A DNA stretch of 64,000 bases from Dactylorhiza incarnata (lineage: Eukaryota > Streptophyta > Magnoliopsida > Asparagales > Orchidaceae), in the NCBI GenBank assembly GCA_033032865.1, contig JAWHQI010000185.1, positions 1,116,001 through 1,180,000 on the forward strand, written 5' to 3'. The notes under the pieces are model-generated. The model did no database searches. It saw nothing but the letters and a program-made list of their open reading frames with translations, and was not told the origin of the DNA. Of this stretch, positions 3,898-64,000 are shown piece by piece (position 1 is the stretch's first letter; each line of letters begins with the position of its first letter). Made by a program: the position numbers and the translations under genes.

Positions 3898-5151
3898 TGT
3901 TGGAACATTATTTTCTACATCCCTTTGATTTGAGAATAACAAATCCTACTTGTATTTGATCTTGTTTGCCATTGTGTTTTTAGCATGCAGGTTTGAACTG
4001 ATATGACACTAGGTTGCTGCATTATTGGTCTAGAACTGCCCACAAGCAGAAATTATGATTGTGGTCTAACGCCAGGCGTTAAGACTTAACACTGGGCGTT
4101 GACGATCAATGAGATGACTTGCCACTGAGATGATCGACAAGATGGCTTGTCGCTGAGAAAATGAAAGAGGTTTAATGCTAGGGGTTAGGTCTTAACACTG
4201 GGCATTAACTCTCGATGATTATGGCAAGGAGGGAAGTAGTCGTGATTGAAGGGATACTTTAGGAATGATCTGACGTAACACCAGCGTTAGCATCAACGCA
4301 AGGTTGCCTAAAATGAATGTTTCCTAAAGTGCAGAATCTCCATCCCATTTTGAAAATCCGAGCCATCAAAACCATTCCATACTGGGTCAACGCCAATCGT
4401 TAGCCTTCATACCAGCATTGGCCTCCATTCCTATAAATTGGTGGACTTTGTCTTCTCCAACTACTGATCGAAGAGAGCCCTATTCCAGCACTTCAGAAAC
4501 TCTGAGAGGTACGTATTTTCTAGACCATCGTCTCCCACACAAATTCGAGATAAGAATTCAAGGAGGATCGGATCAACGCTTACCTAACGTGAAGAACGCA
4601 CGCTTTGACTTTGAGAATGTTCAGCGAGCCTTCTTCGTCTCCAGAATTCTTCATGTAGAGTTTTTATTTGTATTTTGTATTTTGTCTTGTAACTCTTTTC
4701 ATAACTATCGTGAAGTAAATTTGGCTCATGTTGGCAACTAGGTCTGGGTAGGAATTAGGGAGAAATTTGCCTCGTATTGGCGACTGGGTCTATGGAGTAG
4801 ATCTAAGGGGTGCTCGAGGCCTTTCTGGGGATAGAAGGGCTTGAGCGGCTTGAGGCTGTATCCAGGAAGGATAGGCTAAAGCCAACCGGTTCTTGGTGAG
4901 AAGAGTCGGTATAGAAAACAAAAAGAATATTTTACTTTATCGCCTACGATTTCTAGCGTCATAAGAAATCAAATTTTGTAATCTTATATTTCAAGTTAAT
5001 AAAATCATGTCTTTCATTTATATTACTTGATCTCCTCTTTTGTGTGGTTTTAACTTTAATTTAATCTCTTATCATTTCAAGTATTTTAAAATATAACAAA
5101 AGTTTGAAAACCCTTATTCACCCCCCTTTAAGGGTGCCTTAAGATTTAACA
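3898..5151 (+). mobile_element. Element A 5' LTR
   Basis: Starts TGTTGGAACATT and ends GATTTAACA just before the PBS. U3 carries a cluster of TAACGCC/GGCGTTA palindromes (about 4067-4420), then a TATAAAT box at 4432-4438. Downstream are paired 'cgcctcgt.ttggcgac' stretches and a tail close to CACCCCCCTTTAAGGG. It differs from the 3' LTR at many sites, so this insertion is clearly older than C1 and B-1. Confidence 0.85.
4067..4438 (+). promoter_or_regulatory. U3 palindrome cluster plus TATA box (A 5' LTR)
   Basis: TAACGCCAGGCGTT at 4067-4080 is a near-perfect palindrome, and variants recur (AACACTGGGCGTT, AACACCAGCGTTAGC, AACGCCAATCGTTAGCC). The last copies end less than 20 bp before CTATAAATTG at 4431. 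The same arrangement in the 3' LTR lies at 12075-12453. The TATA call is by consensus only. Confidence 0.6.
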
Positions 5152-5153
5152 AG

Positions 5154-5171
5154 TGGTATTAGAAGTAGGTT
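5154..5171 (+). other. Primer-binding site of element A
   Basis: TGGTATTAGAAGTAGGTT lies two bases past the LTR end. It is a mutated form of the initiator tRNA-Met complement TGGTATCAGAGC used by most plant copia elements; element C has TGGTAGCAGAGCTAGGTT at the same place. Confidence 0.75.
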
Positions 5172-5200
5172 ATTCCAAATCGGCTTAACATCTGGTAATA

Positions 5201-6754
5201 ATGGCATCTCATTATCTCTCTTCTATTAGTGCGGGGAATTTTTATGTTGAAGAAAAATCAATTGCACCACCTTTATTCGAAGGGAGAAATTATAAAGGGT
5301 GGAAATTTTTAATGGAAAAATTCATTAAAACTATAGATATCGAAGCCTGGAATATTGCGATTGTAAGACCAGCGGACGAAACAATTAAAAAGGAATGTCA
5401 CCTAAATACAAAGGCTTTAAATAGTATTTTTTGTGCTTTATCTCAAGAAATTTTCAAATTGATATATTGTTTCTCTAGTGCATACAAAGTATGGAAATTT
5501 CTTGAAGAAATGTATGTCTTCCTCTCACAGGTACAGAATAAACGCAAGAAGTGGAGAACAGACAAGCTTGCACATATGGTCAACAATGCTCCTCTCATGA
5601 TGAATCGATGGAGTGCACATCAAGAGGATGAGAAGAAGAAATCCTATCTTTTGAAGAGGACTGTCTAAAAGATGTCAAAGGAACTATTTGTTCAAATCTT
5701 GTCTCTTCTGATAGCAATGTAAGGAAATAAAAGTCTTCTCTTTTTGTGACAAATTCCGTTTACACATTACATATGCTACAAATTGCTAAACGTAAAATGA
5801 AGAAATTGAAAATTGCTAAAAAGAAATTACGTTTAGAAAATAAAAGGTTAAAAGCTAATGTTAATGTAAAATCAAATTTTGAATTACTTAGTTCTCACTC
5901 TTGCTCTTTAGTTAAAATTGCTTCACCTTGTAACTCTTGTAATGATTTAAAAGATAATTACAAGGAACTTGAAAAAAAGTTATTTTTGCAAAAGAACAAA
6001 ATGAAAAATTATGTTTAGAAAACTCTTCTCTAAATAGCAATTGTGCTATGTGTAAAAAACTAAAATTAAAATTAAAGAGATGGATGAAACATTTGAGGAA
6101 TTAAGAAATGACTACAAACTCACATTGAATCTATTGTCACCACTCTTAAAAATAGCACAACTGCTTATAATAAAGCTAGACATAATCTCAAAATTAAGAA
6201 TAATGAATTAGAAACTAAAATCAACTTGCTTAAAGAAATCATAAAGAAAAATTCTCAAAACATACATTCACAATCTCAAGAAAAATTCAAAAGCAAGTTA
6301 AATATGAACTTTCTTAATTTGACTAAGCCAAACATCGGAAATGAAAAAACATCGAAAGATTGTAAATGAAATTCTAAGATATTATCATCACTATCAATCC
6401 TCTCCCAACATAAAATTAAATGCAAACAAATTTCCCTTAAATAATAAATTCAAAAGTCTTTTTTATCCAAACATTCAAGTAAATGACTATGGAAATTTGA
6501 AAAATAAAAAGAACGTTCTTCCAAGGTATGAATGGAGACCCATACGTAAGAATGACGCACTAAAGTCAATTGAATGGGTCCACTCATCCTTATCTTCCCA
6601 AAGGCATACCGATGTATTTGGGTACCCAAAGGAACCATCCCACTTGGTCCTCTTTGGATACCTAAATCTCAAATTCATTAGGTATCATCAAATGCATGAA
6701 GTAGAATCTATTCAAAATAGACCATACAAATTTCTACTTCATGATATGCTTTAA
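5201..6754 (+). pseudogene. gag: gag-like gene of element A (SIRE-type), frameshifted
   Basis: The ATG at 5201 opens a Gag N-terminal domain of the copia type: a LFEGRNYKGWKFLMEKF stretch, then helices through FKLIYCFSSAYKVWKFLEEMY. A frameshift near 5515 breaks it. Homology to element C shows that the same protein continues in other frames through a lysine-rich coiled coil (about 5746-6250) to a segment with FGYPKEPS (WVPKG in C), ending at 6754. No CCHC zinc knuckle is visible. In SIRE-like elements the protease would follow shortly after this point; here translation stops and pol is absent. The product would be a virion structural protein. It is non-functional as it stands. Confidence 0.7.
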
Positions 6755-7387
6755 CATTTTTTTATCCATCATGACATGGTTTTCTAATATAATATTTTAA
6801 ATTTGACTTTGTCCTCTAAAGCCTAATTGAAGTTAACAAATTAAATTAAATAAAAAGTAGAAGTCAAGTTTTCATTTATAAATGACCAATCTATTATCAC
6901 TAAAATCATGCATATTTGTCTTGCTCAATCATTTTTTTGGCATATCCTATAATATTAAGCTCAAATGATTGTGCAAAACTCAAGAATTAAGGTTGTTGGA
7001 GACAATGATCTAAAATTTTAACTTCTGCAACTTTTTACAATTTCTTCTCATTTTTTCACTTCATTAGACAGCTCTTACATTGCACAAACATTATTGAGCA
7101 GAATCGGAAGTGAAATCAAAGAAAATCTAGGCTATACGAGTAAAATATGCACTCTTTGTGAGCTAACACAGGCGCTAAGACCTAACGCCAGCGTTAGCTC
7201 GAATGTTCAATATTCTGTGTTGTTTAAAATTTTGAAAATCTCTAAAAATATTTTTTTTATAATACCTATCTTTATCTGTATGCCTTTGTGTGATCTTTGA
7301 AAAATCTAATACAAAATTATAAAATAATAAACTTATCAAAAATTATTTTTTAAACTTAATTTTTCTATTTTCATGTATCTTGTGAAA
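6755..7387 (+). other. Post-gag non-coding DNA of A with a motif cluster
   Basis: AT-rich DNA without supported ORFs. A cluster at 7163-7197 (GGCGCTAAGACC, TAACGCCAGCGTTAGCTCG) repeats the LTR palindrome. Element C has a motif cluster at the equivalent place (61497-61535), but with C's own LTR version (GCGCTAGTGC, GTGCTAGCTCG). Confidence 0.6.
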
Positions 7388-7480
7388 GGGAGATTTGGGA
7401 TGTCACCCCCATCATATCTCCTTGTACCGGTGCGATCCCTTCACCGGGTATACCTCGAGAAGTCCAAGATCCACTCAAAA
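7388..7480 (+). repeat. ~85-bp dispersed conserved block, copy 2
   Basis: Inside element A. It contains CCGGTGCGATCCCTTCACCG, which can form a six-base-pair hairpin (CCGGTG with CACCGG). It marks the left edge of the stretch present in A but missing from C. Confidence 0.65.
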
Positions 7481-7943
7481 TTGCTAAGTCCAACAAATGT
7501 CTCTCAAAGATAAACTATAGACACATGTACATCATTGCAAATATCCGACAAAGGAAACTATCATATCTTGCCTTACATAAAAAGTATGCATATTCATATT
7601 TTGTAATTAAAAAAGGTTTAATAAAATAGAACGTCATACCAATACTTATCCTTACAATTCATTGAATATCTTTAAAACTAAAGTGATATGCTATTATATC
7701 TTTAAATAGGCCATTATTCTGATCCATTGTCGATAGAAAGTTTATAGATTGTTTTTACATTATAAAGTCAACCAAGGATTAAGTGAAAACCTTTTTTAAA
7801 GCATCAAAATTATAATTATGAAAGCCTGAATAAAACCTAGAACACAACACAGAAACAATTCACAAAATAGATAAAAACAAGAAAAAGGTAAAAAGCATGA
7901 TAACAGCTAACGTTGGGCGCAAGTGGTAACGCTAGGCGTTAGA

Positions 7944-9096
7944 CTAAATTGTCCAAATGCTAAAAACTACTATTACATAACAGTAAGCACCCCAAAACTC
8001 TATACGCTCACTAATAGAATCTGTCCCCTCTGTACTTGAACTTCCTGGATCTCTTGACCTTCGAGTACAACGTGTCGAGTGGCATGGCGGATCCTCCACG
8101 AGAATGTCCCAATCCCTCTCCTCTGCAGGTGTCGATTTCAACTTCAGGGCCCTGATCATATATCGCACCATCTTCTCGATCCGTGACACTCAGCGTGTCG
8201 TGTTCTCCTTGAATTCCTTGAATGACTCCTGATGCTCCTGATTTGTCTCACGGAGTGAAACTCCTCGTCCTAGGGGTGGTCAAAAAGATGATGGTATATC
8301 TCGTGATAGAGTAACTCGAATGGTTGAAGTAGAATAAAGCTCAAGGATAAGATCATTAATATAGTTACTTGATAATGTATGCATACTTCTCAATCACCAC
8401 CCTTTGAATGAGTCCTCCAAAGGGAAGTGTGTTGAGACGAGACTGTCTTGTATCCTTCAATTTAAATGTATAAGGAATCTGTGAGAGTAAAAGATCTGCC
8501 ACATCAAAAACTTCTTCCTGTATAATATGATAAGTAACAATACTCAGTTGTGTAGTGATCTTCTTTGTATCTCCGGACTTCAACATTAAAGTGTGTCGCA
8601 AAATATCTTGAATTATGAATGCTTCTTCCCTAAGTGAAGAAACATCCGTAATTTGCTCTCTAGTCTCCTTCCCATGCAAAACCAGATTCACTGGTGTCCA
8701 GTCTCACTCATCACTATACTTCTCAACCACATCCAGATGATTCTCACTCTCTATTAACCCAAACTCATTCCGCAGATCTTCATGTGTGATTTGAACAACT
8801 TCAAACTATATCATAGACATCACTCCTCCATGAATTTCGGTTTCTAACTGATCAAACAAATGGTTATTGAATTCCCGAATAAAATCTATGGAAAAACAGT
8901 CATCAGTAATCACTAATAACACTCCTGATACAGCCATGAGGTTTTGAATATGGCATGATGGGGGAGGTCTATTTGCAACACCATGCCTTTGCTAATATAC
9001 GCTTTCTCAATCCCCACACAAGATTGATAAGACTCTTGGGGTGGATGGGTCAAAGACTTTCTGGCACGAATCCCATGTGCACTGGAAGAAGCCATA
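7944..9096 (-). pseudogene. Antisense accessory gene of element A (putative plant-transposon domain), broken
   Basis: Read on the minus strand, an ATG at about 9096 (context GTTATGGCTTC) directly follows a T-rich stretch ending ATATGCAG, a good 3' splice site. An open stretch follows to 8913, then a frameshift. Recognisable segments continue in other frames: a FIREFNNHL stretch with ITHEDLRNEFGL after it, and a 108-codon segment at 8691-8365 with AFIIQDILRHTLML and RLNTLPFGGLIQRVVIEKY. The pattern of hydrophobic positions (a 'REF.....L' helix, then an 'It.e.l...fgL' strand, then a helical region ending 'RL.tLPf..Li') is what I associate with the plant 'putative transposon protein' domain. It also parallels the sense gene of B-1. 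Biochemical function is unknown. Confidence 0.5.
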
Positions 9097-9583: not shown

Positions 9584-9656
9584 TTTTATATAAAGTGGAC
9601 TCAACGCCGGTGTTGAGCATAATGCTAGGCGTTAGCTCCTTTTTTCTCTATAAATG
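9584..9656. promoter_or_regulatory. Putative bidirectional promoter inside element A
   Basis: A motif core at 9603-9636 (AACGCCGGTGTT and GCTAGGCGTTAGC) is flanked on the left by TTTTATATAAA (9584-9594, a TATA box read on the minus strand toward the accessory gene). On the right is CTATAAATG (9649-9657, read on the plus strand). The right half copies the LTR arrangement, where GGCGTTAGCCTCC is followed by CTATAAATTG. The minus transcript would run about 490 bp before the accessory ATG and could lose an intron in its leader. Confidence 0.5.
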
Positions 9657-10330
9657 CAATTTCTTTGTTGCCTATCTATTGGTATACCATTATATATATG
9701 TTTACACCTTATTTACTCCATCATTTACAGAAAAAACAAAAATCAAAATATAAAAGATAAAACCATTTCAAAACCACCAAAAATATGCGTAAATAGCCTT
9801 CCAATCAATTCCAAATTCTCTGAAATTTCTACACTAAGAAGGTCTATATACATACTACCTATTCCAAAGATTTTTTTTTTCAAAAATCTCAAAAAACATT
9901 GTTCTGATTGTGCGTTGAGTAGTTAACGCCGGGCGTTAGCTCCTTTTGCCAAACTGAAATTCTGATTTCTCTGCACTATTTTAGGTATTTTTATAATAAT
10001 TTTTCTCTATTTATTTTCTCAATTTTTGAAATTATTTTGTTATTAGTTTGGTTGTTTTTATTCTAAAATAAAAAAATTCAAATAATTCAAAATAATCAAA
10101 AATATGTTTTTGTTATTTGTTTTGCTTTGAAATATTTACAAAACCATGGTTTGACAATAAGACTTCACAAGAGCAAACATCTTAGTTATTTTTGTTTCAA
10201 ATGGTCAAAATTGATTTTGGCATACACACAAAGATTTTCTTCGATGTCTAATTCTAATTTCAAATTTCTTAAACATTGTTTATCTTGTAATGCCTTGACC
10301 TTAATTTGATTATGTGCAATGAAATAGTCT

Positions 10331-11660: not shown

Positions 11661-11669
11661 AATAACAAA

Positions 11670-11909: not shown

Positions 11910-13167
11910 TGGAACATGGTTTTCCGCATCCCTTTGATTTGAGAATAACAAATCCTACTTGTATTTGATCTTGTTTGCCATTGTGTTTTTAGTATGCAGG
12001 TTTGAAATGATATGACACTAGGTTGCTGCATTATTGTCTGGAACTGCCCACAAGCAAAAATTATGATTGTGGTCTAACGCCAGGCGTTAAGACTTAACGT
12101 TGGGTGTTGATGATCGATGAGATGACTTGCCGCTGAGATGATCGACGAGATGGCTTATCGCTAAGAAAATGAAAGAGGTTTAACGCTAAGTGCTAGGTCT
12201 TAACACTGGGCGTTAACTCTCGATGATTATGGCAAGGAGGGAAGTAGTCGTGATTGAAGGGATACTTTAGGAATGATCTGACCTACCGCCAGCGTTAGCA
12301 TTAACGCCAGCATTAGGGTTGCCTAAAATGAATGTTTCCTAAAGTGCAGAATCTCCTTCCCATTTTGAAGATCTGAGCCAACAAAACAATTCCATACTAG
12401 GTTAATGCCAGGCATTAGCCTTAACGCTGGCGTTAGCCTCCAGTCCTATAAATTGCGGACTTCATCTTCTCCAACTACTGATCGAAGAGAGCCCTATTCC
12501 AGCACTTCAAAAAGTCTAAGAGGGACATATTTTCCAGGCCATCGTCTCCCACACAAATCCGAGAGAAGAATTCAAGGAGGATCGGATCAACGCTTACTCA
12601 ACGCGAAGAACGCACGCTTCAGCTTCGAGAATATTTAGTGAGCCTTCGCCGTCTCCGAAATTCTTCATAGGGAGTTTTATTTGTATTTTGTTTTTTGTTT
12701 TGTAACTCTTTTCATAACTATCATGAAGTAAATTCGCTTTTTGTTGGCGACTATGTCTAGGTAGGACTTAGGGAGAAATTCGCCTCGTGTTGGCGACTGG
12801 TTCTAAGGAGTAGATCTAGGGGGTGCTCGAGGCCTTTCTAGGGATAGAAGGGCTATAGCGGCTTGAGGCTTTATCTGGGAAGGATAGGCTAAAGCCAACC
12901 GGTTCTTCGTGAGAAGAGTCGGTATAGAAAATAAAAGGAATATTTTACTTTATCGCCTACGATTTCTAGCATCATAAGAAATCAAATTTTGTAATATGAT
13001 ATTTCAAGTTAATAAAATCATGTATTTCATTTATATTACTTGATCTCTTCTTTTTATGTGGTTTTATCTTTAATTTAATCTCTTATCATTTCAAGTATTT
13101 TAAAATATAACAAAAGTTTTAAAACCCTTATTCACCGCCCCCTCTAATGGCGCCTCAAGATCCAACA
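11910..13167 (+). mobile_element. Element A 3' LTR
   Basis: Begins TGGAACATGG, missing the 'TGT' of the 5' copy (small deletion at the PPT/LTR edge), and ends GATCCAACA. It has the palindrome cluster at 12075-12436 with the TATAAAT box at 12447-12453. The next five bases (tgtta) match the other flank at 4 of 5 positions. Confidence 0.85.
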
Positions 13168-14214
13168 TGTTAAACCTCTCTGTGGTGAGAAGTATTTAGC
13201 GTGCGTCGAGAAGATGTCATGTGTCGAGAATTATTTGAGACACATTGAAACATATGTTCCTTCTTTGCATCGTATTCTTATTCCAAATAAAGTATGCTCA
13301 GAGGACAAATACTCAGTTTATGTCGAAATATCTCTTCACAAAATTTCGATGTTCATTGATAAGTATTCAAACCATATATAATAGAATGTCGAAATCTTTT
13401 CATATGACTATTATCAATTTTAGAGTAGATCAATATCGTGATTGAGATCAAACTCAAGGTGTTATAGATTCATCTATAAAAGGATTTTATGTTGATTAAA
13501 ACCTTAATGGAAGCCATATATTGTGTAGATGTTATATATCTATATACACACACATGAGAAGATTTTAAGGATAGTATAAGGAAAAACATATTATGAATCA
13601 ACTCTTCTCTTCTTCAATATTCAGAATTCTCCTCTATCTCTCTAAGAAGAAGTTCTCTCCAAGAAACATAGTCAACTAGATCATCTTCTCTATCTGGTCT
13701 AAAGCTCTCCTTCTCAATGGCTCTTCATGCTCTTCCTCGAAATATCTCACAGGATTGGATTGATCTTCTTTCAATTGAATCCATCCTTATCTTCCTAGAG
13801 GAATAGTCATGCCACTGCTATATTCTTAAGAAGCTACATACTACTTAAAAAGAAAATCCTTTAGTAATTTCTTAAAGAAGGATTACTTTGTGGAAAATTT
13901 TCTTCCATATGATATCTGAAAAAGAGTTTTAAGAATCTCTTTTAGAAAGACTAAGTTAGTTCTAAGGGTCTCCATGTCAAAAGACTCAGATCGGTCCTGA
14001 GAATCCCGTTATAAAAGGATTCATATTGGTTTGGGATCACCTAATCAAAAGATTCATTATATTTATTTTGTGAATCTCCTTATCAAAAGATTAACAAAAA
14101 TGGTTCTAAGAGTCTCCTTATCAAAAGACACAGTATTGTTTAGTGGAATTCCTACTAAGGGGTAGAAGAGGGGATGTACCCAAGTTTTTAAGGGGAACCA
14201 CTATATTGTTTTGG
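13168..14214 (+). mobile_element. Right piece of B' LTR
   Basis: Continues the LTR broken at 3897. It carries degraded 33-bp units (13955-14135), the GGTAGAAGAGG...GTACCCA landmark and 'ggggaaccactata', as in the other B-type LTRs. The last ~200 bp expected of a B-type LTR are missing; the sequence changes near 14214 to the internal tail of A'. It has fewer CGTCGA motifs than B-1. Confidence 0.6.
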
Positions 14215-14413: not shown

Positions 14414-16015
14414 TGTTGGAACATGCTTTCCGCATCTCTTGGTTTGACAATAACAAATCCTATTGTATTTGATCATACTTGCTTTGTGTTTATAGTATGC
14501 AGGATTCTATGCTTTCAAATCACCATGGAAATGTATTTTGTTGTTGCTACCGCGTAACGTCAGTACTATCGCTGGCGCTAGTGTTCGTTCGATGAAATGG
14601 AAGCTGCGTTCGACGAACTGGCGCTCGACGAAATGAAACCTGTGTTCGACGAACTGCATGCTCTGCCATGGCGCTCGACGAAATGCATGCTTTACCGCGA
14701 CCGTTAGAACTACAGCTGGCGCTAGCGATCGACGAAATGGAGGTCGACGAAATGAAGGTGGAGTTCGACGTAGATGCGCCCGACGAAGTGCTCTACCGCG
14801 GTGCATTACAACTACCGCTGGCTCTAGTATTCATTCGACGAAATGAAGGCTGCGCTCGACGAAATGCTTATCACTGCGTTCGATGAATTTGCGATCGACG
14901 AAAGTTGAATCCCGTTCGACAAAAATTCAGTTGACGAAATATGAGGCCAGCCCGACGAAAAGAGATGTGCTCTACCGCGGCGCGTTAGCACTACCGATGG
15001 CGCTAGTATAAATGGAAAGAATTGCAAGAAGGAAACAGTGGAGAAAAAGGAATGTCGACGGGATGCTATTTTGGCAAGTTCTATCGCGGTGCGTTAAGTC
15101 TAATGCCCGGCAGTAGCTTTTGGAAACTTCCCGTCTGGAGTTGATTGACGAGCAGATTTGGAAGAAGATTGTGGCTGAAGGAAGGATATCGCGTTACCGC
15201 GGGGCATTAGCATTACCGCGGTGCGCCAGTGTTTGGCACTCAAAATGTTGCCTAAACTACCTCGATCCGTGTGCTTCATTGCCTAATGTGGATACCACGT
15301 GGCAGTAGTACTACCGCAGGTGGTAGTGGCTGATTCTACAAAAAGACGCGCGCCTCCTCTGTTGGTGCTTGCTGTTCCAGAACAATTTGAAGCAATATTT
15401 TCATAGCACTCGTGAGAGCCTTCCCAAGAAGCCCAAAGAACTACGTCAATGATCATAAACGCAAAAGAACTTGAAGACCAATCCGATCGCATCTACATCG
15501 ACATCAAGTTCTTCATTTGAGGAAGTCTTAGTTCTTGTCTTGTTTTAGTTTTCAAATTGTAATCTTTATAACTTTTGCTAAGTAGAGGAACTCGCCACAC
15601 GACGACTAGGACCTTGCGGGGACTAGGAGAAAATTCGCCTCGCGTTGGCGACTAGGTCTAGGTTGTAGATCTAGGGAGTGCTCGAGGCCTTTCCAGTGAG
15701 GGAAGGGCTAGAGCGGCTTGAGGCCTTGTCTAGTGAGAGATAGGCTAAAGCCAACCGGTCCTTAGGAGAAGCGTCGGTATAGAAAACCAAAAGAGTTTTC
15801 ATTGGTCGCCTCTTTCCAAGCGTTATTGGGAAAAGTTTTGTAATCCAATTTATTTCAAGTTAATGATCAATGAGAATATGTTTGTCTCTTTATCTCTGAT
15901 TCGTGCTTAATGTTTTTCATTGATTCCAACCTAAAAGCAATTAATTTCTCTAAATAATTTCGAAAATCTTACAACCCTTATTCACCCCCCTCTAAGGGGG
16001 CCTACAGATCCAATA
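14414..16015 (+). mobile_element. Element A' 3' LTR (1.6 kb)
   Basis: Starts TGTTGGAACATGC and ends GATCCAATA (CAACA mutated). Downstream landmarks match the A and C LTRs: 'cgcctcgcgttggcgac', 'gtgctcgaggcctttcc', 'gctaaagccaaccggt', 'acaacccttattcacccc'. Its U3 differs from theirs: TCGACGAA-type repeats (14575-14950) and CTACCGCGG/GCGTTAGCA motifs end six bases before a TATAAAT box at 15007-15013. Base 16016 onward is the interior of the gypsy-1 LTR. Confidence 0.8.
14553..15013 (+). promoter_or_regulatory. TCGACGAA-type motif array plus TATA (A' LTR)
   Basis: More than a dozen copies of TTCGACGAA/CTCGACGAA and close variants occur in under 400 bp, mixed with CCGCGGTGCGTTA and GGCGCTAG. The last, GATGGCGCTAG, abuts TATAAAT at 15007. 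Open frames on both strands here are by-products of the repeat. Confidence 0.6.
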
Positions 16016-21500: not shown

Positions 21501-23621
21501 CACCATAGGATTCACTCTAGCTATTTTTCGAGAAACAGCTATTTCTCGAGAAAGGCAGGGTCAGTCCACTTCTCGAGAAATAGTTATTTCTCAAGAAGTG
21601 AAGGTTGTAGCTGCTTCTTGAGAAACAGCTATTTCTCGAGAAGTGAAGGCAGTGAGTTCATCGAACGTGGTTTGACGAACAACCAGCGCTATAGTTTGCC
21701 GAAGCGAGTTCGTTGATTTGAGTTCGATGAACCGCTAGCGCTGGAGTTCGCTGAAGTGAGTTCATTGAATTGAGTTTGACGAACCGCTGGCGCTGGAGTT
21801 CGCGCGTTCGTCGAACTGAGTTTGACGAACCGCTAGCACTGGAGTTCGCCGAAGCGGGTTCGTCGACCTGAGTTGATGAACAGCTGGCGCTGGAGCCCAT
21901 TCGATGAACAGTTCGTGCTGATTTCGATGAAGCGCGGGCGCAGGCGTAAGCAGCGTTCCTGGATGCCCGATCTTTCTGGATATTGATCCTTCGGTCTAGA
22001 TAGGAGCATCCTAAGGTCTTATTTAGGTAAGAGAGTCCCTTTTATGGCTTCGGGAAATCCTTTGTGTTGTTGGAGGCGTAGAAAAGAGTAAGGGTTGGAG
22101 GGAGAAGAAGGCTAGATCCGCCATTGTTGGAGCACCAGAGCTCCGTTCGCCGATCCGAGACCAGATCCGTGGAGAGGACTAGAAGGCGCTTCTTTCTATC
22201 CGTTCCTTTCAACCGATCCATGGCGAGGAAGAGAACTCTTAGGGTAATGACATCTCTCCTCCCGGTTTTAAGATGCGTGCATGGCATCTATGCTTTTACT
22301 TCCCTTTTTCTGAAATTTATGGCACCAGATCTCTCAAATGAGAGGGGTTTGGGTCGCCTTGGTTCAAGAAGGACCATCAGGTTGATTGAGTCCGTCCCCG
22401 ACATGATTTGCACTAGAGATCCGCTCCGTTAGTGGATTAGGCATTCTGTGTGAAGCCAAAATCGTGACCGGCGGTCCAATCCGGTGATGTTGCTTAACAT
22501 GCATATTAGGGATTTTGCTAGAAATCCGATGACGGAGAAAACGTCGTTTGTGTTGCCCTTATGTTCGTGTGAGAATGAACGTTGGTTTGGAAAGGGTAAT
22601 GGTGATATGAATGTGAAGACATGGTTTGTCTTTGTTGTCGGCTCGCTAGCCCGTGAATGCTTGGATTCATGTGGGGAGAGTGTCCCGGCAAGACAAGTCC
22701 CCTTCGTGGTTGTGGCAAGAACAAAGTATGTTGGTGCGCCCGTTGGCAAGATGAGCCATGTAAGTGTTGAGGTCCTAGTGGAGTTCTTGGCTTTTCGCTT
22801 TGTGATTGTGGCAAGAACAAGTATGCTGGTGCGCCCATTGGCAAGATGAGCCATGTAAGTGGTGAGGTCCCAGTGGAGTTCTTGGCCTTGGGATTGTACG
22901 CTCGTGGGGGAATTGATGAGTACCCTTTGTTTGTTATGAAATGTTGATGTGTGTTGTTATGTTAGAAGCATACACGCCATAGGGTGCCTTGGGTGAAACC
23001 CAGGTTTGCATACATGTTGCATTGCTAGATCCCCTTACTTTTATTGCTCAACATAGAAATGTGGATGATGATTGTGACACCCATGCTTGTCATGTTTATG
23101 TTAATACTGTTTATTACATTTGCATACAAAGTGCTGACTTGCAGGGTGATGTAGTTCCCCGGGGTCCGCTAGGACGGCCGGGAGGAGGGGTGTTGTTACA
23201 CCGTTGTTGGTCAGCCAAAGCTGACCCCCGTTTACCGCTCTTTGTGATTTGGATGCAGGTCAAGGATCGCAGGCTGGACCTAGCTCGCCGGCCATAAAGG
23301 CCTAAGCTTCATGAAGTGCTCTTTTCATGCTTTCTAGTTTGATTTGATGTCTTTACCTGTTACGGCTTGCATGCCGAGGTAGCTTAGGATTGTGATGATC
23401 TGTTGGATATTTATATGCCCTGTTTGACTTGAGTTGGAGTTTTGTAAAGCCTTAAGGCCGTAGTACTCTTATGTAGATGTGGACAACTTCTGTGGTTTGT
23501 TTTTTTGTTTCCGCTGTGTTAGTTCTGAGTTTTGAGATGGTTAGATCTATATCACTTTTTAATGCTAAAGCTGTGGCGATTATATGCTGTGGGGTCCCGG
23601 CCGGACCTATATTATATAGTA
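21496..23621 (+). mobile_element. Gypsy-1 3' LTR
   Basis: Starts TGTAACACCATAGG. U3 carries a CTCGAG palindrome array and ~53-bp repeats (21525-21940). The right half from 22640 matches the 5' LTR. It stops at 'atatagt', short of the final GGAGGTGTTA terminus, where B-2 internal sequence begins. The gypsy-2 3' LTR (2154 bp) supports an original length near 2.15 kb. Confidence 0.85.
21522..21940 (+). repeat. CTCGAG palindrome array and ~53-bp GAACCGCTAGCGC repeats
   Basis: Four copies of TTCTCGAGAA and two decayed ones (CTCAAGAAG, CTTGAGAA) occupy 21525-21645. Four to five units containing TTTGACGAACCGCTAGCGC and GGAGTTCGCCGAAGCG follow. This is the motif-dense zone of this LTR. Confidence 0.75.
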
Positions 23622-26883: not shown

Positions 26884-28193
26884 TGAAAGTGCACAGTTAA
26901 CCTCACTAGAATTCTCTAGAGGGGGTGAATAGAGATTAAAAATACTTTGTGCAATTATATATATATATGTGTAATAATCACAGATTTAAGCTTCCCACAC
27001 ACCAACAAGAATTAAGCAAGTAAAGAAGAAAAATAACAAGAAGAAAATCACAGCACAACACAAGGAAATATAGTGGTTCCCCAAACTTTGGGTAGTCCAC
27101 TGTTCTACCCCCTTTGGTAGGAATTCACTAACTTGCACTGAGTCTTTTGATAAGGAGACTCTTAGAACCAGACTGAGTCTTTTGATAAGGAGACTCTTAG
27201 AACCACTACAACTGAATTTTTTGAAGAGAGATTCTAAAAACTCTTTTACATAGTTTGAAAATGAAATAAGGATAAGAAGAAGAAGTAGAACAAGTAGAAG
27301 GACAGAAAACACTATATGTAAGAAAGAATCTTCTTCCTAGCAAGAAGATTAGAAGCACAAGTATAGTGAATATGATCTCTCTTCTATAGTGAGAAGGAGA
27401 TTGTAAGCTTTTCTCTCTTTTGTGAGAGCTTTCAGAATTTGCAGCAGAATGGCTTGAGAAGATGAAGGCTTTTTCTTTGCTGCAGCACACTATCTCTTAT
27501 CTCAGCTTTTTCACTCTTCACTTGGGAGCTCTTCCTCTTTTTCAAATGTATATGGTGGATCACTTCTTGTCATTCTTTGCCGACCTCCTCCTTATTTATA
27601 GCTCTGTTTAAAATATATTGCTAAAGGAGAATAATTAATTTAGCAGACAGAGAATTAGAAAGAGATAAGAGTTTCCATAATCAATATTTCTATAGAAGGA
27701 AAAGAATTCATTCTGATTTCAAATAATATCCATAATAATCTTAATCAAATTAGCCAAAAATCAAATAGAAGGAAATGCTGATTCAGAACGGCTATAAAAG
27801 AATAATCTCATTCCATAAAAATCAGATCTACAGAAAGAAGGAAAGATATCTGGCGTGTTTTTGAATTACTTATAGATATCGACGTGCGTCGATTACTATT
27901 CGACGTAAACGTCGATTTCATCCTGGCTGGACGTCGAAAGGAGAATAAGGAAGGTGCGTCGACAAAGGTGCGTCGACTTTATCAAATGCGTCGACTAGAA
28001 GTCAGAGGTACGTCGACTATAATTACGTCGAATTCTTCTAAGAGTTACTTCGACTCATTCTGAGAGAAACGTCGACTATATTTCGACGTTGCGTCGAATA
28101 CTTTTCGACGCATATTTACTTAGCCTAGTTTTTCATACTTAGAATTTATATTCTTCTTAATTCTAGGGGTTAAGATAAATATTTTCCCCAACA
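26884..28193 (-). mobile_element. B-1 3' LTR
   Basis: Reads TGAAAGTGCACAG to TTCCCCAACA on the plus strand. It contains two 33-bp units (27120-27205), a minus-strand TATAAATAAG at 27600-27591 and about 15 CGTCGA/TCGACG motifs at 27884-28110. Confidence 0.9.
27884..28110 (-). promoter_or_regulatory. CGTCGA motif array (B-1 LTR U3)
   Basis: About 15 CGTCGA/TCGAC cores in 227 bp (for example TATCGACGTGCGTCGATTAC). The copy in the other LTR is at 42062-42300. The same core recurs in gag and at the accessory promoter of this element. Confidence 0.7.
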
Positions 28194-28206
28194 ATCTCCC
28201 CCTATT
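28194..28206 (-). other. Polypurine tract of B-1
   Basis: On the minus strand AATAGGGGGAGAT directly precedes the LTR start TGTTGGGG. Confidence 0.85.
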
Positions 28207-30123: not shown

Positions 30124-30213
30124 TGCAGGTCAGTGAGAAAGAGGAAGAAATGGCTGGACTGAGAGGTAAGAGGGATGAAAGATGCAGAGTGCGAGAGGAT
30201 TTCTAACTGAAGA

Positions 30214-30426
30214 GTCTATTTAAGTTAGGTGAAACGTCGAAATGAGACACAATTCGAGGCATATTCGGTACTACAGTGGATGTGACCGAAAATATTTTAG
30301 TATTGCCGCTCTTTTTCATGAAGTCGACGTTACGTTGAGTGGAATCCGACGTAAGCGTCGATACAGTCTGAGGTAAGATGTTAGGGTTTCATATCGACGG
30401 TGCGTTGATTATAAAATCGACGTGAC
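30214..30426 (-). promoter_or_regulatory. Putative promoter of the B-1 accessory gene
   Basis: On the minus strand CTTAAATAG (30223-30216) lies about 95 bp upstream of the accessory ATG, with a CT-rich leader between. Eight bp further upstream begins a cluster of CGTCGA/TCGACG cores (30234-30425), the same core as in the LTR array. Confidence 0.5.
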
Positions 30427-30521
30427 TTTCATTTTCCTGAAAAATTTTGGGTTTTCCCTTGAGAGATTATTTCTTCCTGCTTCTAATGTTTTCTAAGATA
30501 GTCTTGGACTAATTTTTATAA

Positions 30522-41044: not shown

Positions 41045-42379
41045 TGAAAGTGCACAGTTAACCTCACTAGAATTCTCTAGGGGGCGGGGGGGGGGGGGGG
41101 GGTGAATAGAGATTAAAAATACTTTGTGCAATTATATATATATATATGTGTGTGTGTAATAATCACAGATTTAAGCTTCCCACACACCAACAAGAATTAC
41201 GCAAGTAAAGAAGAAAAATAACAAGAAGAAAATCACAGCACAACACAAGGAAATATAGTGGTTCCCCAAACTTTGGGTAGTCCACTGTTCTACCCCCTTT
41301 GGTAGGAATTCACTAACTTGCACTGAGTCTTTTGATAAGGAGACTCTTAGAACCAGACTGAGTCTTTTGATAAGGAGACTCTTAGAACCACTACAACTGA
41401 ATTTTTTGAAGAGAGATTCTAAAAACTCTTTTACACAGTTTGAAAATGAAATAAGGATAAGAAGAAGAAGTAGAACAAGTAGAAGGACAGAAAACACTAT
41501 ATGTAAGAAATAATCTTCTTCCTAGCAAGAAGATTAGAAGCACGAGTGTAGTGAATATGATCTCTCTTCTATAGTGAGAAGGAGATTGTATGCTTTTCAC
41601 TCTTTTGTGAGAGCTTTCAGAATTTGCAGCAGAATGGCTTGAGAAGATGACTGCTTTTTCTTTGCTGCAGCACACTATCTCTTATCTCAGCTTTCTCACT
41701 CTTCACTTGGGAGCTCTTCCTCTTTTTCAAATGTATATGGTGGATCACTTCTTATCATTCTCTGTCGATCTGCTCCTTATTTATAGCTCTGTTTAAAATA
41801 TATTGCTAAAAGGAGAATAATCAATTTAGCAAATAGAGAATTAGAAAGAGATATGAGTTTCCATAATCAATGTTTCTGTAGAAGGAAAAGAATTCATTCT
41901 GATTTCAAATAATATCCATAATAATCTTAATCAAATTAGCCAAGAATCAAATAGAAGGAAAGGCTGATTCAGAACGACTATAAAAGAATAATATCATTCC
42001 ATAAAAATCAGATCTACAGAAAGAAGGAAAGAGATCTGGCGTGTTTTTGAATTACTTATAGATATCGACGTGCGTCGATTACTATTCGACGTAAACGTCG
42101 ATTTCATCCTGGCTGGACGTCGAGAGGAGAATAAGGAAGGTGCGTCGACAAAGGTGCGTCGACTTTATCAAATGCGTCGACTAGAAGTCAGAGGTACGTC
42201 GATTATGATTACGTCGAATTCTTCTAAGAGTTACTTCGACTCATTCTGAGAGAAACGTCGACTATATTTTGACGTTGCGTCGAATACTATTCGACGCATA
42301 TTTACTTAGCCTAATTTGTCATACTTAGAATTTATATTCTTCTTAATTCTAGGGGTTAAGATAAATCATTTCCCCAACA
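41045..42379 (-). mobile_element. B-1 5' LTR
   Basis: Pairs with 26884-28193. It is 25 bp longer, mainly because of an expanded G run after CTAGGGGGC (about 41080-41102) and a longer TA/TG run (41132-41158). CGTCGA array at 42062-42300. Confidence 0.92.
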
Positions 42380-42540
42380 GGCGGTAAAGGACAAAGGGAC
42401 ATGAAGACACTGATACATTGGTCACAGACAGACTTGTTTGAGTTATGAACTCTTATTGCTTAGGTAGTAATGATGCATTGCTAGATGCCGCTCATTATTT
42501 GGGAGACTTTTGTTGATTCCTTTAAGATCAATTAGGAGAC
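42380..42540 (+). other. Copia D 3' non-coding region (right part) and PPT
   Basis: Resumes the sequence cut at 26883 and resembles the reverse complement of 32019-32170. It ends with the purine-rich AATTAGGAGAC at the LTR edge. Confidence 0.75.
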
Positions 42541-51775: not shown

Positions 51776-52075
51776 TCTGCGCTTGACGAAATCCAGCTAT
51801 CTCAGCGGTCGACGATCCCGTCTCAATGGTTCAGCGGTCGACGAACAGATTGCCTCAGCGGTCGACGAACAGACCCCATCTCAGCGGTCGATGAAAAGAT
51901 GCGTTCGACGAACTCAAGTCTGCGTTTGACAAACAGCTCAATGTTTCAGCGGTCGACGAATCCTTCAATTCGATGAACTCAAGTCTGCGTTCAATGAATC
52001 TTCAACAGAAGCTCAGGACGACGAATCAAATGTTTAGGTCGACAAACTTGAAGCTGAGCTCGACAAAATATCTTC
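51776..52075 (+). promoter_or_regulatory. CAGCGGTCGACGAA motif array (LTR E)
   Basis: Five copies of CAGCGGTCGACGA(A/T) or near variants plus several TTCGACGAA/TTCGATGAA cores in 300 bp, followed by ATTATATATG near 52110. Confidence 0.65.
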
Positions 52076-53914: not shown

Positions 53915-54200
53915 AGAGCTAACGTCGACGCTAGGTGCTAACGCTAGCGCTAGCGGTTGTCTAGATGAACCGTCGAGACGCGCTCCATACCACTGAGAGG
54001 AGCCCTATGCCATCGAGACGCTATCGCTAGCACTGACAGTAGTGGTGGTCTAGACGAACTACTGAGACGAGATCAACACCATTGAGATGAGCTCTATACC
54101 GTTGAGATGCTAGCGCTGGCGGTAGTGATCGAACTGGCGAGCTTTGTTCCATCGAGGCGCTAGCGCTAGCGCAGGCGGTAGATGAACCGACGGAATGCTG
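53915..54200 (+). promoter_or_regulatory. GCGCTAGCGC motif array
   Basis: Dense CGCTAGCGCTAGCG, CGTCGAGACG, GTCTAGACGA and GCTAGCGCTGGCGGTAG motifs, many palindromic; a possible TATA (CTTAAAAAGCC) follows at 54422. Confidence 0.55.
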
Positions 54201-57482: not shown

Positions 57483-58690
57483 TGTTGGAACATGGTCTTC
57501 CGCATCTCCTTGGTTTGAGAATAAAAATTCCTATGTGTATTTGATCTTGTGTGTATAAGTGTGTAGGAAATAAAACCATATGACTCAAGGATAACATATG
57601 AAGGTTGCCCCAAAGTTTGAAGCCAGAATTCCAACATGTTCACTAGCATCGGTGGTAACACCTAGCATAGGCGCTAGCTCTGATTAGAGCAATTTTGGGA
57701 GGCAGATATAGAAGGAGATAGCATCAGGCGATAACATCTAAAGCAGGCGATAACACCTAGCGTGGGCGGTATCTACTATTGCAGACGATAACATAAATTA
57801 ATAGAGGAAGGCGGTCGGCTTGCTTAAAATGAAGGATTCTCATGCGGAGAATATTTCTTAATCCAGGATAGCGCCGGCGGTAGCGATAGCACAGGCGCTA
57901 GCTCCAAGACTATAAAAATGACCCATTGGATCCGTCTTCTTCATCCTCTTATGATCCTAAATTCCAGAGCTTCATGCCACATCATATAGACGAAGATTCG
58001 GAGAGAGAATCCCACAAATCCATGAAGGCTTAAGGAGATAATTGGAGAAGATTTCAACACACTTCATCACCATGACGAAAGACCGCATCGACTACGATCA
58101 TACTCTGTGGGTCTTCGTCTACTTCTCTAAGAGATCGATATATGGAATTCTTATATTGTTGTTGTTATTTCATTTATCCATCTCTTTTAAATCGTGTAGT
58201 AAATTCGCCTCGTGTTGGCGACTAGATCTGGGTAGGACTTAGGGCATAAATTTACCTCGTGTTGGCGACTAGATAAAGGATAGGTCTAAGGGGTGCTCGA
58301 GGCCATATCTAGGGAAGGATTGGCTAGAGCGGCTTGAGGCTGTATCCGGGGAAGGATAGGCTAAAGCCACCAGTTCGTGGGGATACGAGTCGGGATAGAA
58401 AACAAAAAGAGATTTTCATTTATTCGCCTTTGATTTCCAGCGTCATAGAAATCTAGTTTTGTAATCAATTTTTATCAATAATAATCATGTCTCTTTTTGT
58501 AATGAAATTGATTTACTCTTCATTTCTCTAAATTATTTATTTCTTACTCTTTCATTATAAAACAATTTAGATATTCATTCTAAATCACTATTTCAATCTC
58601 TTAATCTTTCAAGTATTTCAAAATATAATATAAGTTTTTACAACCCTTATTCACCCCCCCCCCCCTCTAAGGGGACCTGCCGATCCAACA
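57483..58690 (+). mobile_element. Element C 5' LTR
   Basis: TGTTGGAACATGG to CGATCCAACA, 1208 bp. U3 motif cluster 57647-57902, TATAAAAA at 57911-57918, 'gtgttggcgac' pair and a C(12) run at 58654-58665 where A has six C. Confidence 0.88.
57647..57918 (+). promoter_or_regulatory. GGCGCTAGC/GGCGGTA motif cluster plus TATA (C LTR)
   Basis: TAACACCTAGCATAGGCGC, CACCTAGCGTGGGCGGTA, AGCGCCGGCGGTAGCG and CACAGGCGCTAGCTCC; the last ends eight bases before TATAAAAA. Confidence 0.6.
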
Positions 58691-58692
58691 AG

Positions 58693-58710
58693 TGGTAGCA
58701 GAGCTAGGTT
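58693..58710 (+). other. Primer-binding site of element C
   Basis: TGGTAGCAGAGCTAGGTT, two bases past the LTR; initiator tRNA-Met-like complement. Confidence 0.85.
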
Positions 58711-60254: not shown

Positions 60255-61808
60255 TGTCTTTTAATTTTTCTTTTTGTTTTCTTATTTTTTTAAGTTATCA
60301 TGTAATGGTCATCATATATATTATTGGAAATATGATTCTATCTCTTAAAACTTAATGAGTTTATAAATCAAATTGATCAAATTTCAAAATCATATTTCTA
60401 TTTTGATGACCTATCTATCTTTCTTATATTCATTGCCTATATATATCATATAGTATTCATATAAATTGAACTATAAATTTGTTATATGATATGTAAATCA
60501 AATCAAGTTATTAGGTAATTAAGCACCTTAGCCTTTATCAACAAAATTAGAGAAATAACATAATCTAAAAGAAAGTTCAAAATCTAAAAGAAAGTTCAAT
60601 GTTCAATATGTTCTTTTTCTTTTTCAAAACAAAAATTGTAGTGTGTTCACTCCTTGATGTCAAACATGATCTAAACCATCACTATTGTTCACCTATAAAA
60701 AATCACATATTAATTCAAAATTCATAATTAAAAAGAAAATCACTAAAATGTATTGAAAGAATTTACCATTATAATGAATATTGAATTCACAGGCACCACC
60801 ATGATCTATTAATGTCCTTTGCTAAAAGTCTTCTAAAAACAACTAATTCTATCACATTTATATAAATTATATGATGACAATTGATATTATAATTACATAC
60901 CATGGTTAGTATATTATGTGTGTATTGTGATTTATTTCAAGTTTAGACCTTAGAATCACCATGATATCAATAAGATCAAATCAAATAGAATCTTCACTTC
61001 ATTTTAGGTCAATAAATTGAAACACTATCATACTTTGGCATAAAATTAATCTTAAATTTATCATACTAACATTGTCACCTAAAGAGTATCAGTATCTATG
61101 TTAGGATTTATATGTTTACCAAGATATACAGGCTGGGTATTCTTATCTAAGGCATATCTATGTTATTCTTCGCATGAACATCATTTCATACTAATCATTT
61201 AAATCATGCTTATTTGGCTTATTCGAACATGATATCATGTGTCTTCATTTCCTATCTTTTTCAAGTTATACTATTTTGATAAACACAAGCCTTTAGAAAA
61301 GTCAAAATGAAGGTATAATAAAATATCTCATTCAATGTTTATTTGGTAAAGTCATATACAAAATCGCTAATGTTTCATGCAATTTGCACTATCTAGACAT
61401 CTCCAAAAATTCTAAAATTTCTGCATGAAACTACTCTTGGGACACTTAATCAAGATCAAAAATTGGAATTTTCAAAATCTTAAAAAATAGTGTACTATTT
61501 GTCGCGCTAGTGCTAGTGCCGGTGCTAGCTCGCCTATGTGATTTTCTGTAATTTTAAAATTCTGAAAAATCACTAAAAATATATTATTTTATATGTACTA
61601 CTCACTTTTGCATTTCTACCTATATTTGATTTTTGAAAAATTAAAATACAAAATTTCAAAAGCCAAATTACAAAAAATATTCTTCTTACTTCCTTTCTTT
61701 GGTTATTTGTTTGATTTCTATTTCTATATTCAAAAATCAAATACAAAAATATAAAACATCAAACATTATTTTTTGAACCTAACTTTTTTATTTACATGTA
61801 TCTTGTGA
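60255..61808 (+). other. Post-gag non-coding DNA of C
   Basis: AT-rich with no supported gene. A motif cluster at 61497-61535 (GCGCTAGTGCTAGTGCCGG, GTGCTAGCTCG) occupies the same place as 7163-7197 in A. Confidence 0.6.
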
Positions 61809-61900
61809 AAGGGAGATTTGGGATGTCACCCCATCACATCTCCTAGTACCGGTGCGAACCCCTCAAAGGGTAGACCTCGGGAAGTCCAACATCAATTTTA
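61809..61900 (+). repeat. ~85-bp dispersed conserved block, copy 4
   Basis: AAGGGAGATTTGGGATGTC through TAGTACCGGTGCG to GTAGACCTCGGGAAGTCC, close to copy 2. Confidence 0.7.
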
Positions 61901-63780
61901 AGAGTTCAAACTTTAAATCAAAATTATTTTTCAAAAATATCAAAAATACTGTATCGACTTTATTATGAAAATCAAGCATGATTTAATCCATCATTTAGAC
62001 CTTCTATAATGTTACAATTCATCTTTTCAAACTACTTTGAACATTATTTTTATCATGCTTTGATATATCTACTCATATGTGCACCAATTGTAATGAAAAG
62101 GTTGTGTAGAACCAAGCTTAGCAAGCCTCTAAGTATGAGTAAATGTTTTATGGTTGATAATGATTTTTATTCCCTCACTTATTTTGGCAAAGTCTACAGG
62201 TGCTTTTAATCTAAGAATGTCTTCTTGTGTATTGTAACTGTACAATGAATTAAACTTTGCACAAGTATCTTACCTACACCACCTTTATTTGCACTCTTAA
62301 TATTTAAGAAAAGTGGTTGTGCTTTCAAAATTACATTGGTTTGCAAAACAAGTGTATTCAGAGACATTTGTACAAAAAATAATCATTAAACAAATTGATA
62401 AAGATAACTCCACCATGCACTACTTGAACCTCCTGATAAGTCTTAATAAGCGTTGTGAGGTTTAGCACCTTGGAAAGAATAGTAAAGTGTCTTGTGCAAA
62501 CCTTCATTTTTACACCACTTATTCTTAAGTACACCGGATCACAAAAATTATATATATTGAAAAATAAAGTATGTGATCCCCCAAGCACTATTTTGCACCC
62601 TGATAAGTCTTAATGAAGATTGTGTGTGCAAAGCACCTTGGTAGTTGTACATTTTTTTATGTGCATTGAAGTGTGTGTAAGTAAAATTATTTGTGTTTTA
62701 TTGTGCACTTTACTCTACATATGTCTTGTATTTTTGATTAAATCATTTGGTTACTCTATTCAAAATACACTTATGTGCACATCATTATCCTTCATAACAC
62801 TTCTTCTCATGAGTATTGGATCCTAATGCTAAATTATATACTCCTCTTTATTTATAAATGCACTAGATAACCTAGCATGTTTTCTACAATGTTTGGTATG
62901 TTTTAAATTTATGAATTATAATAACATTGTAGGAGTTTCTCTTTGATATCCTTCTTTCATGCTTGGTTACTTTATTATCAAACTTAAAGATTTTAAATGA
63001 AAATGATTTACAAAACATCTTTCTTTTTTGGAATTTAACTCATATATCTTCTTATGAATCATCATGATTACAAAAAGATGTTTCTTGTATTTCTATAAGT
63101 CTTCCGCATCATCACCATATTTTTTTTACCTTGCGCTTTCATGCTTAAATCAAAGTCTTAAATCTCAAAATTCCTTTTTCAACAAATGGGAGACTTGCTT
63201 GGTAGTATTTATATTGGTTGTTCTAACACGAATATCATTTTTATTCGAAAAACACTGATTCATTAATGGATTTCAAAATAGCTATATGAGTTTTCCAAAA
63301 ATTCAAATAAAAATCTAAACTCATAGGCTATGAACTTATCATTAGATTCAAATGCTAAATGTTTCCAATTATTATTATCCCATGATTACATATCTCACCA
63401 TTGTGGGGGCGTAGGTTTGTAGACATTAGATAACCTAATCTCTAAGTCATGTCTTGTCCTTAACCGAGGAGGGTTCCAGTGGGGCCTTGCTAGATGCTAG
63501 GGGGAAAGTGTGTTAGGTTGAGTAATTTCTAGTGTTTGCATATGGGACTAACACCCCAACCTACGGCATGTGTGCAGCTCCTCATGACCATCCGTAACTT
63601 AGTACGGGGCTAGGGTGTAGACATATTTTCTGGGTAGATTGGTTACTTGGAAATCATTACCTTATTATGCTTAAAACTCCTTATCATTTCATTTCCTCTA
63701 AAAAGCTCGATCATGGCTTATCTTTTTATAAAAAATCCTCTTTTATGTCGATTGCTTCCTTGCCACTTTTGCTAATAACA
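61901..63780 (+). other. Non-coding 3' internal region of C
   Basis: No gene. It shares with A the direct-repeat pair at 62432-62478 and 62600-62645 and the AGCTCGATCATG phrase near 63707. A stretch at about 63400-63640 is more GC-rich than its surroundings and has no counterpart in A. Confidence 0.55.
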
Positions 63781-63920
63781 AAAGGGGGGAGAACTAACAT
63801 GATAATTAATAATCGCTATCAAATGGGAAAACTAACATAATTAATGAGTAAGATGATAGCTTACATATTAGGGGAGCATTCACATAGGGGGAGCATGAAT
63901 TTAGGGGGAGCAATTCTAAA
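63776..63920 (+). other. Reiterated PPT-like tracts of C
   Basis: CAAAAGGGGGGAGAAC, TTAGGGGAGCATTC, ATAGGGGGAGCATG and TTAGGGGGAGCAATTC occur in 140 bp. The terminal PPT and 3' LTR should follow right of the window. Confidence 0.7.
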
Positions 63921-64000
63921 TACTAAAATCGATAATTATCCTAAGTCATCACTCACACACACACAAGTAGGTTTCATCATGCATATATATTAATGCTCTT

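Follow-up and report, generated by a model that had tools for sequence, protein, structure and literature searches.

Family-specific CpG palindromes in the long terminal repeats and at the accessory-gene promoters of putative Sirevirus-type retrotransposons in an orchid genome

Why should a retrotransposon carry, in front of an internal gene, the same short CpG palindromes that crowd its long terminal repeats (LTRs)? The question is raised by a 64,000-nucleotide stretch of the Dactylorhiza incarnata genome (contig JAWHQI010000185.1, positions 1,116,001 to 1,180,000 of the forward strand, in the 3.27-Gb assembly GCA_033032865.1), referred to below as the window, in which element limits were set from LTR pairs. 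Element A (3898-13170) consists of gag pieces and an antisense accessory gene, while element B (26884-42380, minus strand) combines gag with an accessory gene in sense orientation and encloses a nested gag-pol copia element, C1. Element C (57483 to about 65225) extends beyond the window end, and a second B-type element, B2 (locus L013), lies directly past the window. The arrays are probably palindromic promoter arrays of Sirevirus-type Ty1/copia elements, of the kind known as RM boxes, in which the dyads of each family are likely sites for a dimeric factor near the TATA box. The features on which this reading depends are the following.

3898..5154, plus strand: A 5′ LTR; U3 palindromes at 4067-4402 in pairs 20 bp apart, TATA at 4432; 90% identity with the A 3′ LTR.
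11910..13170, plus strand: A 3′ LTR; U3 palindromes at 12075-12435, with a doublet at -37/-18.5 from the TATA.
8365..8991, minus strand: fragments of the A antisense accessory gene; weak PF20167 match (E 2.2e-5, under the gathering score).
9585..9635, minus strand: A accessory antisense promoter; TATATAAA at 9585-9592, palindromes centred 16.5 and 35 bp upstream.
26884..28200, minus strand: B 3′ LTR; CGTCGA array at 27879-28111; 95% identity with the B 5′ LTR.
41045..42380, minus strand: B 5′ LTR; CGTCGA array at 42065-42297.
28389..30129, minus strand: B accessory gene, same orientation as gag; the window copy occupies more than one frame, and the intact copy L034 has no Pfam family.
30235..30430: B accessory promoter array; its CGTCGA/TCGACG half-sites stand about 110-300 bp before the ATG at 30123.
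30802..30952: B palindromes with a 33-bp period in the gag C-terminal frame; the array resumes at 39144-39195 past the nested C1.
57483..58693, plus strand: C LTR; TAGCGC-N2-GCGCTA palindromes at 57663-57900, doublet at -35.5/-17.5 from the TATA at 57911; second copy at L013:42-1223.

The arrays consist of short inverted-repeat dyads whose half-site and spacer differ by family: TAACGC-N3-GCGTTA in A, TAGCGC-N2-GCGCTA in C and CGTCGA-N7-TCGACG in B. When repeated CpG-containing words of k = 6 and k = 8 were compared with 500 dinucleotide-preserving shuffles, all 11 array regions lay above the shuffles at k = 6 (0/500 equalled the observed value), which bears out the original prediction of arrays denser than shuffled controls. 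At k = 8 the A 5′ U3 was weaker (48/500) and the remaining ten array regions again gave 0/500. The A accessory promoter was equalled by 1/500 shuffles at k = 6 and 2/500 at k = 8, and the B accessory promoter by 7/500 at k = 6; two of three coding controls were null, and A gag was weakly enriched (19/500 and 5/500). In a dyad discovery, the top dyad in each of nine arrays occurred 5-9 times, against a shuffle maximum of 3. A scan of 74 kb (the window and the next 10 kb) with LTR-derived dyads found 20 matches for A versus 0.9 in block shuffles, 25 versus 0.6 for C and 38 versus 1.3 for B. Twelve of the 20 A matches lie inside A, and 27 of the 38 B matches in B and B2, within their LTRs or internal control regions. 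The C dyad is shared more widely, with 10/25 matches in C and the remainder mostly in the related D, A′ and A arrays. The particular words quoted in the original prediction fared less well, since the window contains only 4 copies of GGCGCTAGC and 3 of CAGCGGTCGACGAA, which therefore cover few sites.

The same dyads recur, family by family, at the internal promoters. Seven accessory promoters scanned with eight LTR-derived dyads gave a cross-table close to diagonal: A accessory promoters matched the A dyad together with the N3 form of the A′ dyad, which overlaps it, the B and B2 promoters matched the two B-type dyads only, and the promoter of A3, an A-like accessory gene of another family, matched the C/D and A′ N2 dyads only. 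The within-family match that had been proposed for A and B-1 was thus found for A and B, and also for B2. Blind discovery without LTR information returned CGTCGA-N7 from the B2 promoter (0/40 shuffles equal) and TAGCGC with N2 and N8 tied from the A3 promoter, the latter not above shuffles (7/40); on the A and B accessory promoters alone, nothing exceeded the shuffles. The flank of the A3 promoter is 78% identical to C over 403 bp, and because A also shares part of this stretch (83% over 188 bp), the assignment of A3 to C is provisional. Membership of A3 in the C family was not adopted, its own LTR not having been found in L039 by reading or in L040 by blastn with the A, A′, C and two further LTRs; the agreement between LTR and promoter therefore holds for A and B/B2 and is provisional for C.

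As had been claimed from the first reading, the palindromes stand close to the TATA box, ending about 2-12 bp before it in A, A′ and C, with the C1 array about 73 bp away. A degenerate scan (TAnCGC-N2/3-GCGnTA before the TATA) was used, a stricter 7/8-pair search having failed at most sites, clear ones with decayed CpG among them. It placed two palindromes 18-19 bp apart upstream of the TATA in 9/10 LTR promoters of the A/C/A′ group, the LTR promoter without the pair being the window A 5′ LTR, which retains the distal palindrome alone. At the A antisense accessory promoters the pair stands at -35/-16.5 in 5/6 copies, and the order, N3 distal and N2 proximal, and the 18.5-bp spacing are common to A LTR and A accessory promoters. 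The A3 accessory promoter has the pair at -36.5/-18.5 and an LTR in L031 a different palindrome pair at -40.5/-18; in A′, which carries more palindromes downstream of its TATA-like site, the doublet is shifted to -27/-8.5. The A accessory gene runs opposite to the LTR transcript, and the array before it is therefore part of its own promoter; the LTR-like distance between doublet and TATA found there separates promoter function from roles at the RNA level. The evidence for the doublet is the repeated spacing, and copies within one family are not independent.

Both placements are repeated across genomic copies. The A LTR sample comprised 27 copies with at least 1000 aligned bases, after exclusion of seven short loci (L001-L007) that duplicate longer ones. 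Every one of them has two to five U3 dyads (mean 3.89 versus 0.018 in shuffles) and none in the remainder of the LTR, and adjacent dyads occupy homologous places, with a spacing of 20 bp in 31 of the 32 pairs closer than 70 bp. At least one dyad is present in the accessory-promoter region of all six A accessory copies. Six B copies, scanned over 3.1-3.3 kb each, have dyads at three places, namely in the gag C-terminal frame with a 33-bp period, at the accessory promoter and in the LTR U3. (The 33-bp period of the gag array amounts to 11 codons per repeat, and the C1 insertion point is inside it.) In B and B2, GTCGA cores are dense before the accessory gene and in the LTR U3 and nearly absent from the accessory coding sequence, where a single core stands at one position close to the start codon in five of six B copies, and L036 has none; three of four B2 copies have none (L013 being scanned over part of the gene) and L043 has one. 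Three more B2-type copies have promoter dyads (3/3), and LTR dyads were present in 2/2 where the fetched part includes the 3′ LTR; L043 shows no recognisable LTR within its fetched part. Between sister LTRs the arrays turn over: the first 60 bp are common to A, C, A′ and four further LTRs at 77-86% identity, and the aligned R-U5 parts of the same LTRs are about 68-83% identical, whereas the array region is unalignable in seven of eight LTR comparisons with A (three of them C copies), the exception being L018, a close relative of A.

Several observations weigh against the promoter reading. A TATA-adjacent doublet is absent from B, which has no CpG within 60 bp upstream, and from C1, which has two CpG there. 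The accessory promoter of the A copy L012 retains only the proximal palindrome, and one of the ten LTR promoters, the C LTR in L013, carries a TATA-like variant in place of a TATA box. For single promoters, comparison of the degenerate doublet with shuffles was mostly non-significant (0-114 of 300 equalled the observed count) because these stretches are CpG-rich. The B accessory promoter was not above shuffles at k = 8 (162/500), and the two internal arrays are missing from L036, one of the six B copies.

Taking these points together, each family's dyad would most likely serve a dimeric, sequence-specific DNA-binding factor that works close to the TATA. Such a factor would bind the dyads as DNA and activate transcription, of genomic RNA at the LTR and, independently of this, of the accessory gene at an internal promoter that has the same sites; one factor may serve both promoters. 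We lean towards a host factor, or factors, rather than an element-encoded one. An antisense accessory gene whose promoter carries the LTR doublet makes the palindrome reader testable, with one family-specific protein, one family-specific 15-bp site and two promoters.

An element-encoded reader, in which the accessory protein binds the dyads of its family, both in the LTR and before its own gene, and protects or activates the family, by analogy with VANC (PMC5735166, in its available text), is possible, but we regard it as the less probable source of the factor. The within-family match between LTR and internal promoter is consistent with it, as is the purifying selection acting on the accessory gene between families: dN/dS (the ratio of nonsynonymous to synonymous substitution rates) is 0.09 between the A-like L012 and L008 and 0.22 between B and B2, for the computable pairs and with synonymous sites near saturation. 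Copy pairs within a family range from 0.12 to 1.28 (without L035), as expected for dead copies. The dyads differ between the promoters of the A and A3 genes, whose proteins are mostly 48-61% identical segment by segment, A3 using the C-type dyad, and the intact B protein ends in a basic C-terminal stretch that, by eye, resembles a nuclear signal. Against such a reader, arrays are present without a match to the A, A3 or B accessory proteins in C1, in the pol-bearing elements with A LTRs (L010 and L022) and in the C copy, and the LTR of the A3 element is missing from the comparison. The A accessory reaches 24.9 bits against a gathering cut-off of 45 for PF20167 (Transposase_32), for which the B accessory gives no hit; no Pfam domain was found in the B accessory, intact copy L034 included, and no relative of it in the protein database at E 1e-3. 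HHalign of the B accessory with PF20167 relatives is weak (probability 4%, E 0.009), and a PF20167 relative, P0001, has no fold match in the PDB with a low-confidence model (pLDDT 62.6).

Some wider matches can be described in passing. Of the 150 best-scoring B matches, the majority have an accessory frame of 110 aa in common, and a minority have frames up to 597 aa. A canonical PF20167 protein of the same genome has relatives in Platanthera orchids, with up to 47% identity. L029-L033 are, by eye (pol frames, sense accessory), Gypsy/Athila-like elements; their PF20167 frames are 385-503 aa long, and CpG peaks at 16-32 per 250 bp directly upstream of the PF20167 gene. They were considered as array carriers and set aside, no dyad array being visible by eye ahead of the accessory gene; no 3′ LTR of theirs could be recognised within the fetched parts.

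A search for pol (tblastn with C1 pol and the L010 reverse transcriptase and RNase H) found none in the window A, in the A copies L009, L011, L012, L019 and L028, in B or in the fetched part of B2 (L013); the single RNase H match in L019 lies outside the A element. Pol was detected in L010, L016 and L022, elements that are bounded by A LTRs and lack an A-type accessory gene. Between A LTRs there are thus two complementary kinds of element, gag-pol without accessory gene and gag with accessory gene but without pol. We offer, as a tentative and rather improbable extension of the element-encoded reader, that these are family-private Sirevirus circuits, in which a nuclear accessory protein would bind the CpG palindromes of its family both in the LTR and before its own gene, protein and palindrome would change together as families diverge, and the two kinds of copy, sharing arrays, would complement each other.

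The match could also reflect descent rather than selection, the internal accessory promoter being a duplicated LTR core promoter. The shared N3-distal/N2-proximal order and 18.5-bp spacing of the A promoters would follow from such a copy, and a 38-bp stretch of the C LTR is 87% identical to the A3 leader. This explanation seems unlikely, given that self-comparison at E 1e-8 gave no LTR-to-internal match in A or B, and that the 38-bp match is essentially the palindrome pair.

Still less probable is a role at the RNA level, with the arrays acting as hairpins that supply small-RNA silencing or being retained for their RNA structure, which has been reported for palindromes in maize Sireviruses; small RNAs of maize map to such palindromes according to the available text of PMC10760457. 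Folding is stronger than in shuffles in gypsy-1 (z -9.1), C1 (-8.1), the B2 LTR (-4.8) and promoter (-4.6), the A 3′ U3 (-3.5) and the B LTR (-3.0), but not in the A 5′ U3 (-0.8), A′ (+0.5), C (-0.7) or E (+2.0). Hairpins were therefore rejected as a feature common to all arrays, and with stability varying so widely, from +2.0 in E to -9.1 in gypsy-1, DNA sites would fit better than RNA structure; a hairpin role would also leave the fixed TATA distance on the antisense strand unexplained, and folding may be a side effect. Functionless slippage of CpG-rich tandem repeats, which do occur as true tandem repeats in C1, in part of gypsy-1 and in the B gag array, is hardly credible for the dyads of A, C and most of the B promoter, which stand in unrelated spacers, exceed dinucleotide shuffles and recur at promoters.

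The other array-bearing features of the window are listed here.

9905..9940: distal A palindromes upstream of the accessory promoter; related palindromes are retained in the pol-type A elements L010 and L022.
7164..7196: palindromes flanking the A accessory gene towards gag (dyad scan).
7906..7941: A palindromes close to the accessory gene 3′ end (dyad scan).
14415..16009, plus strand: A′, an LTR-like copy; an array of TACCGC-N2/3-GCGGTA and TCGACGAA starts at about 14590, with a TATA-like site at 15007 and more palindromes up to about 15330.
30968..32018, minus strand: C1 3′ LTR; CCGACGAATC array in 87-bp tandem repeats; gag-pol copia, accessory gene not found.
38089..39139, minus strand: C1 5′ LTR; array as in the C1 3′ LTR.
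61502..61527: C-type palindromes in C, adjoining the spot where the accessory region is missing.
21519..21960, plus strand: gypsy-1 array; CTCGAG, TTCGWCGAA-like and CGCTAGCGC motifs, in the linker between pol and 3′ LTR, outside the LTRs.
51802..52060: E array, with CAGCGGTCGACGAA; putative LTR, one copy.
53922..54190: D array of the TAGCGC-N2-GCGCTA type; putative LTR, one copy.

The claim that nearly every LTR carries an array accordingly stands for A, A′, B, C and C1 but fails for gypsy-1, whose two LTRs contain CTCGAG 0 times and are CpG-poor (observed/expected 0.47 and 0.54), the linker at 21519-21960 holding 3 CTCGAG; E and D, with one copy each in the window, are only putative LTRs. 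The TTCGWCGAA palindrome occurs at 14609, 14645, 14834, 21807 and 51904, that is, in A′, the gypsy-1 linker and E, and C1 holds the related TCGACGAA. A short conserved stretch is found at 7297-7471, 56790-56885 and 61729-61893 of the window, at L014:746-931 and, by eye, at about 46-105 of L039; it occurs in several linkers and in unrelated-looking places. Another LTR-like stretch with TCGACGA clusters was seen by eye at L013:1440-3300.

How, then, do these elements compare with known systems? The Ty1/copia gag domain PF14223 is found in B (3.6e-23) and B2 (1.1e-16) and weakly in A (8.7e-5, below cut-off), and RVT_2 in the A-LTR element L010 (9.6e-27). In the hallmark polypurine tract (PPT), AGGGGGAG is followed by AT and then TG, the 3′ LTR (TGTT) starting 10 bp after the octamer begins. 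This is exact in sequence in the window B and exact in spacing in L041 and L042; C has TT for AT, and the window A copy has AT with a damaged LTR start. Linker PPT octamers number 2 in A, 2 in L011, 3 in the pol-bearing L010, 3 in C, 4 in B, 3 upstream of A′, 7 in L041, 6 in L042, 2 in L043 and 1 in gypsy-1, with none in C1. A, B and C thus carry the Sirevirus PPT hallmarks.

The kind of array is already published for Sireviruses, a precedent that the original prediction leaves unmentioned. The available text of Bousios et al. 2010 (PMC2829016) describes palindromic CpG RM boxes in Sirevirus LTRs, upstream of the TATA, with a CGG-CCG core signature in 12/13 published RMs; nine env-bearing elements have extra linker RM boxes, 77/79 of them upstream of the env gene, an internal promoter is supported, and no binding factor could be named. 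The elements described here are alike in their high-copy, family-specific CpG palindromes in the LTR upstream of the TATA, in their PPT hallmarks and in the extra palindromes before an accessory gene, which is env-like there. They differ in that the A and B half-sites (TAACGC-N3-GCGTTA and CGTCGA-N7-TCGACG) lack the CGG-CCG core, which is present in the L031 LTR (TGTCGG..CCGACA), in the 7-bp spacer of the B dyad, in the antisense orientation of the A accessory gene, in the lack of pol from the accessory-bearing copies examined, and in the occurrence of arrays also in C1, a copia element without PPT hallmarks, and in a gypsy linker. Grande and Retand (PMC7264820, PMC11963269, as far as their available text goes) have an antisense gene between pol and 3′ LTR with a suspected nuclear or DNA-binding role, that of Grande with its own promoter, and the A accessory gene is likewise antisense; unlike A, Retand, a gypsy lineage, has TRP28 and Grande has gene23, and the available text of these papers does not report palindromes shared by LTR and internal promoter. 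For the antisense accessory case and the doublet geometry, titles and abstract beginnings of the open-licence literature gave no precedent. What is new is the half-sites without CGG-CCG, the antisense accessory gene, the doublet-TATA spacing common to LTR and internal promoter, and the array turnover between sister LTRs; the match is also sharper than in the Sirevirus elements of 2010.

VANDAL elements are Mutator-like DNA transposons. The elements in the window are not, because they have LTR pairs, gag-2 and a PPT; they are LTR retrotransposons. For VANC, binding and demethylation have been measured (PMC5735166, whose main text, where available, does not mention palindromes). The sites bound by VANC are, as far as that text goes, short-motif arrays whose evolution proceeds through tandem repeats, and the likeness lies in family-specific short-motif arrays in non-coding parts, an accessory protein encoded by the element and motif turnover between relatives. 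A 2026 sunflower paper on extra genes of LTR elements already points to VANC in its available part. If the family-private circuits outlined above proved true, they would be the LTR-retrotransposon counterpart of VANC.

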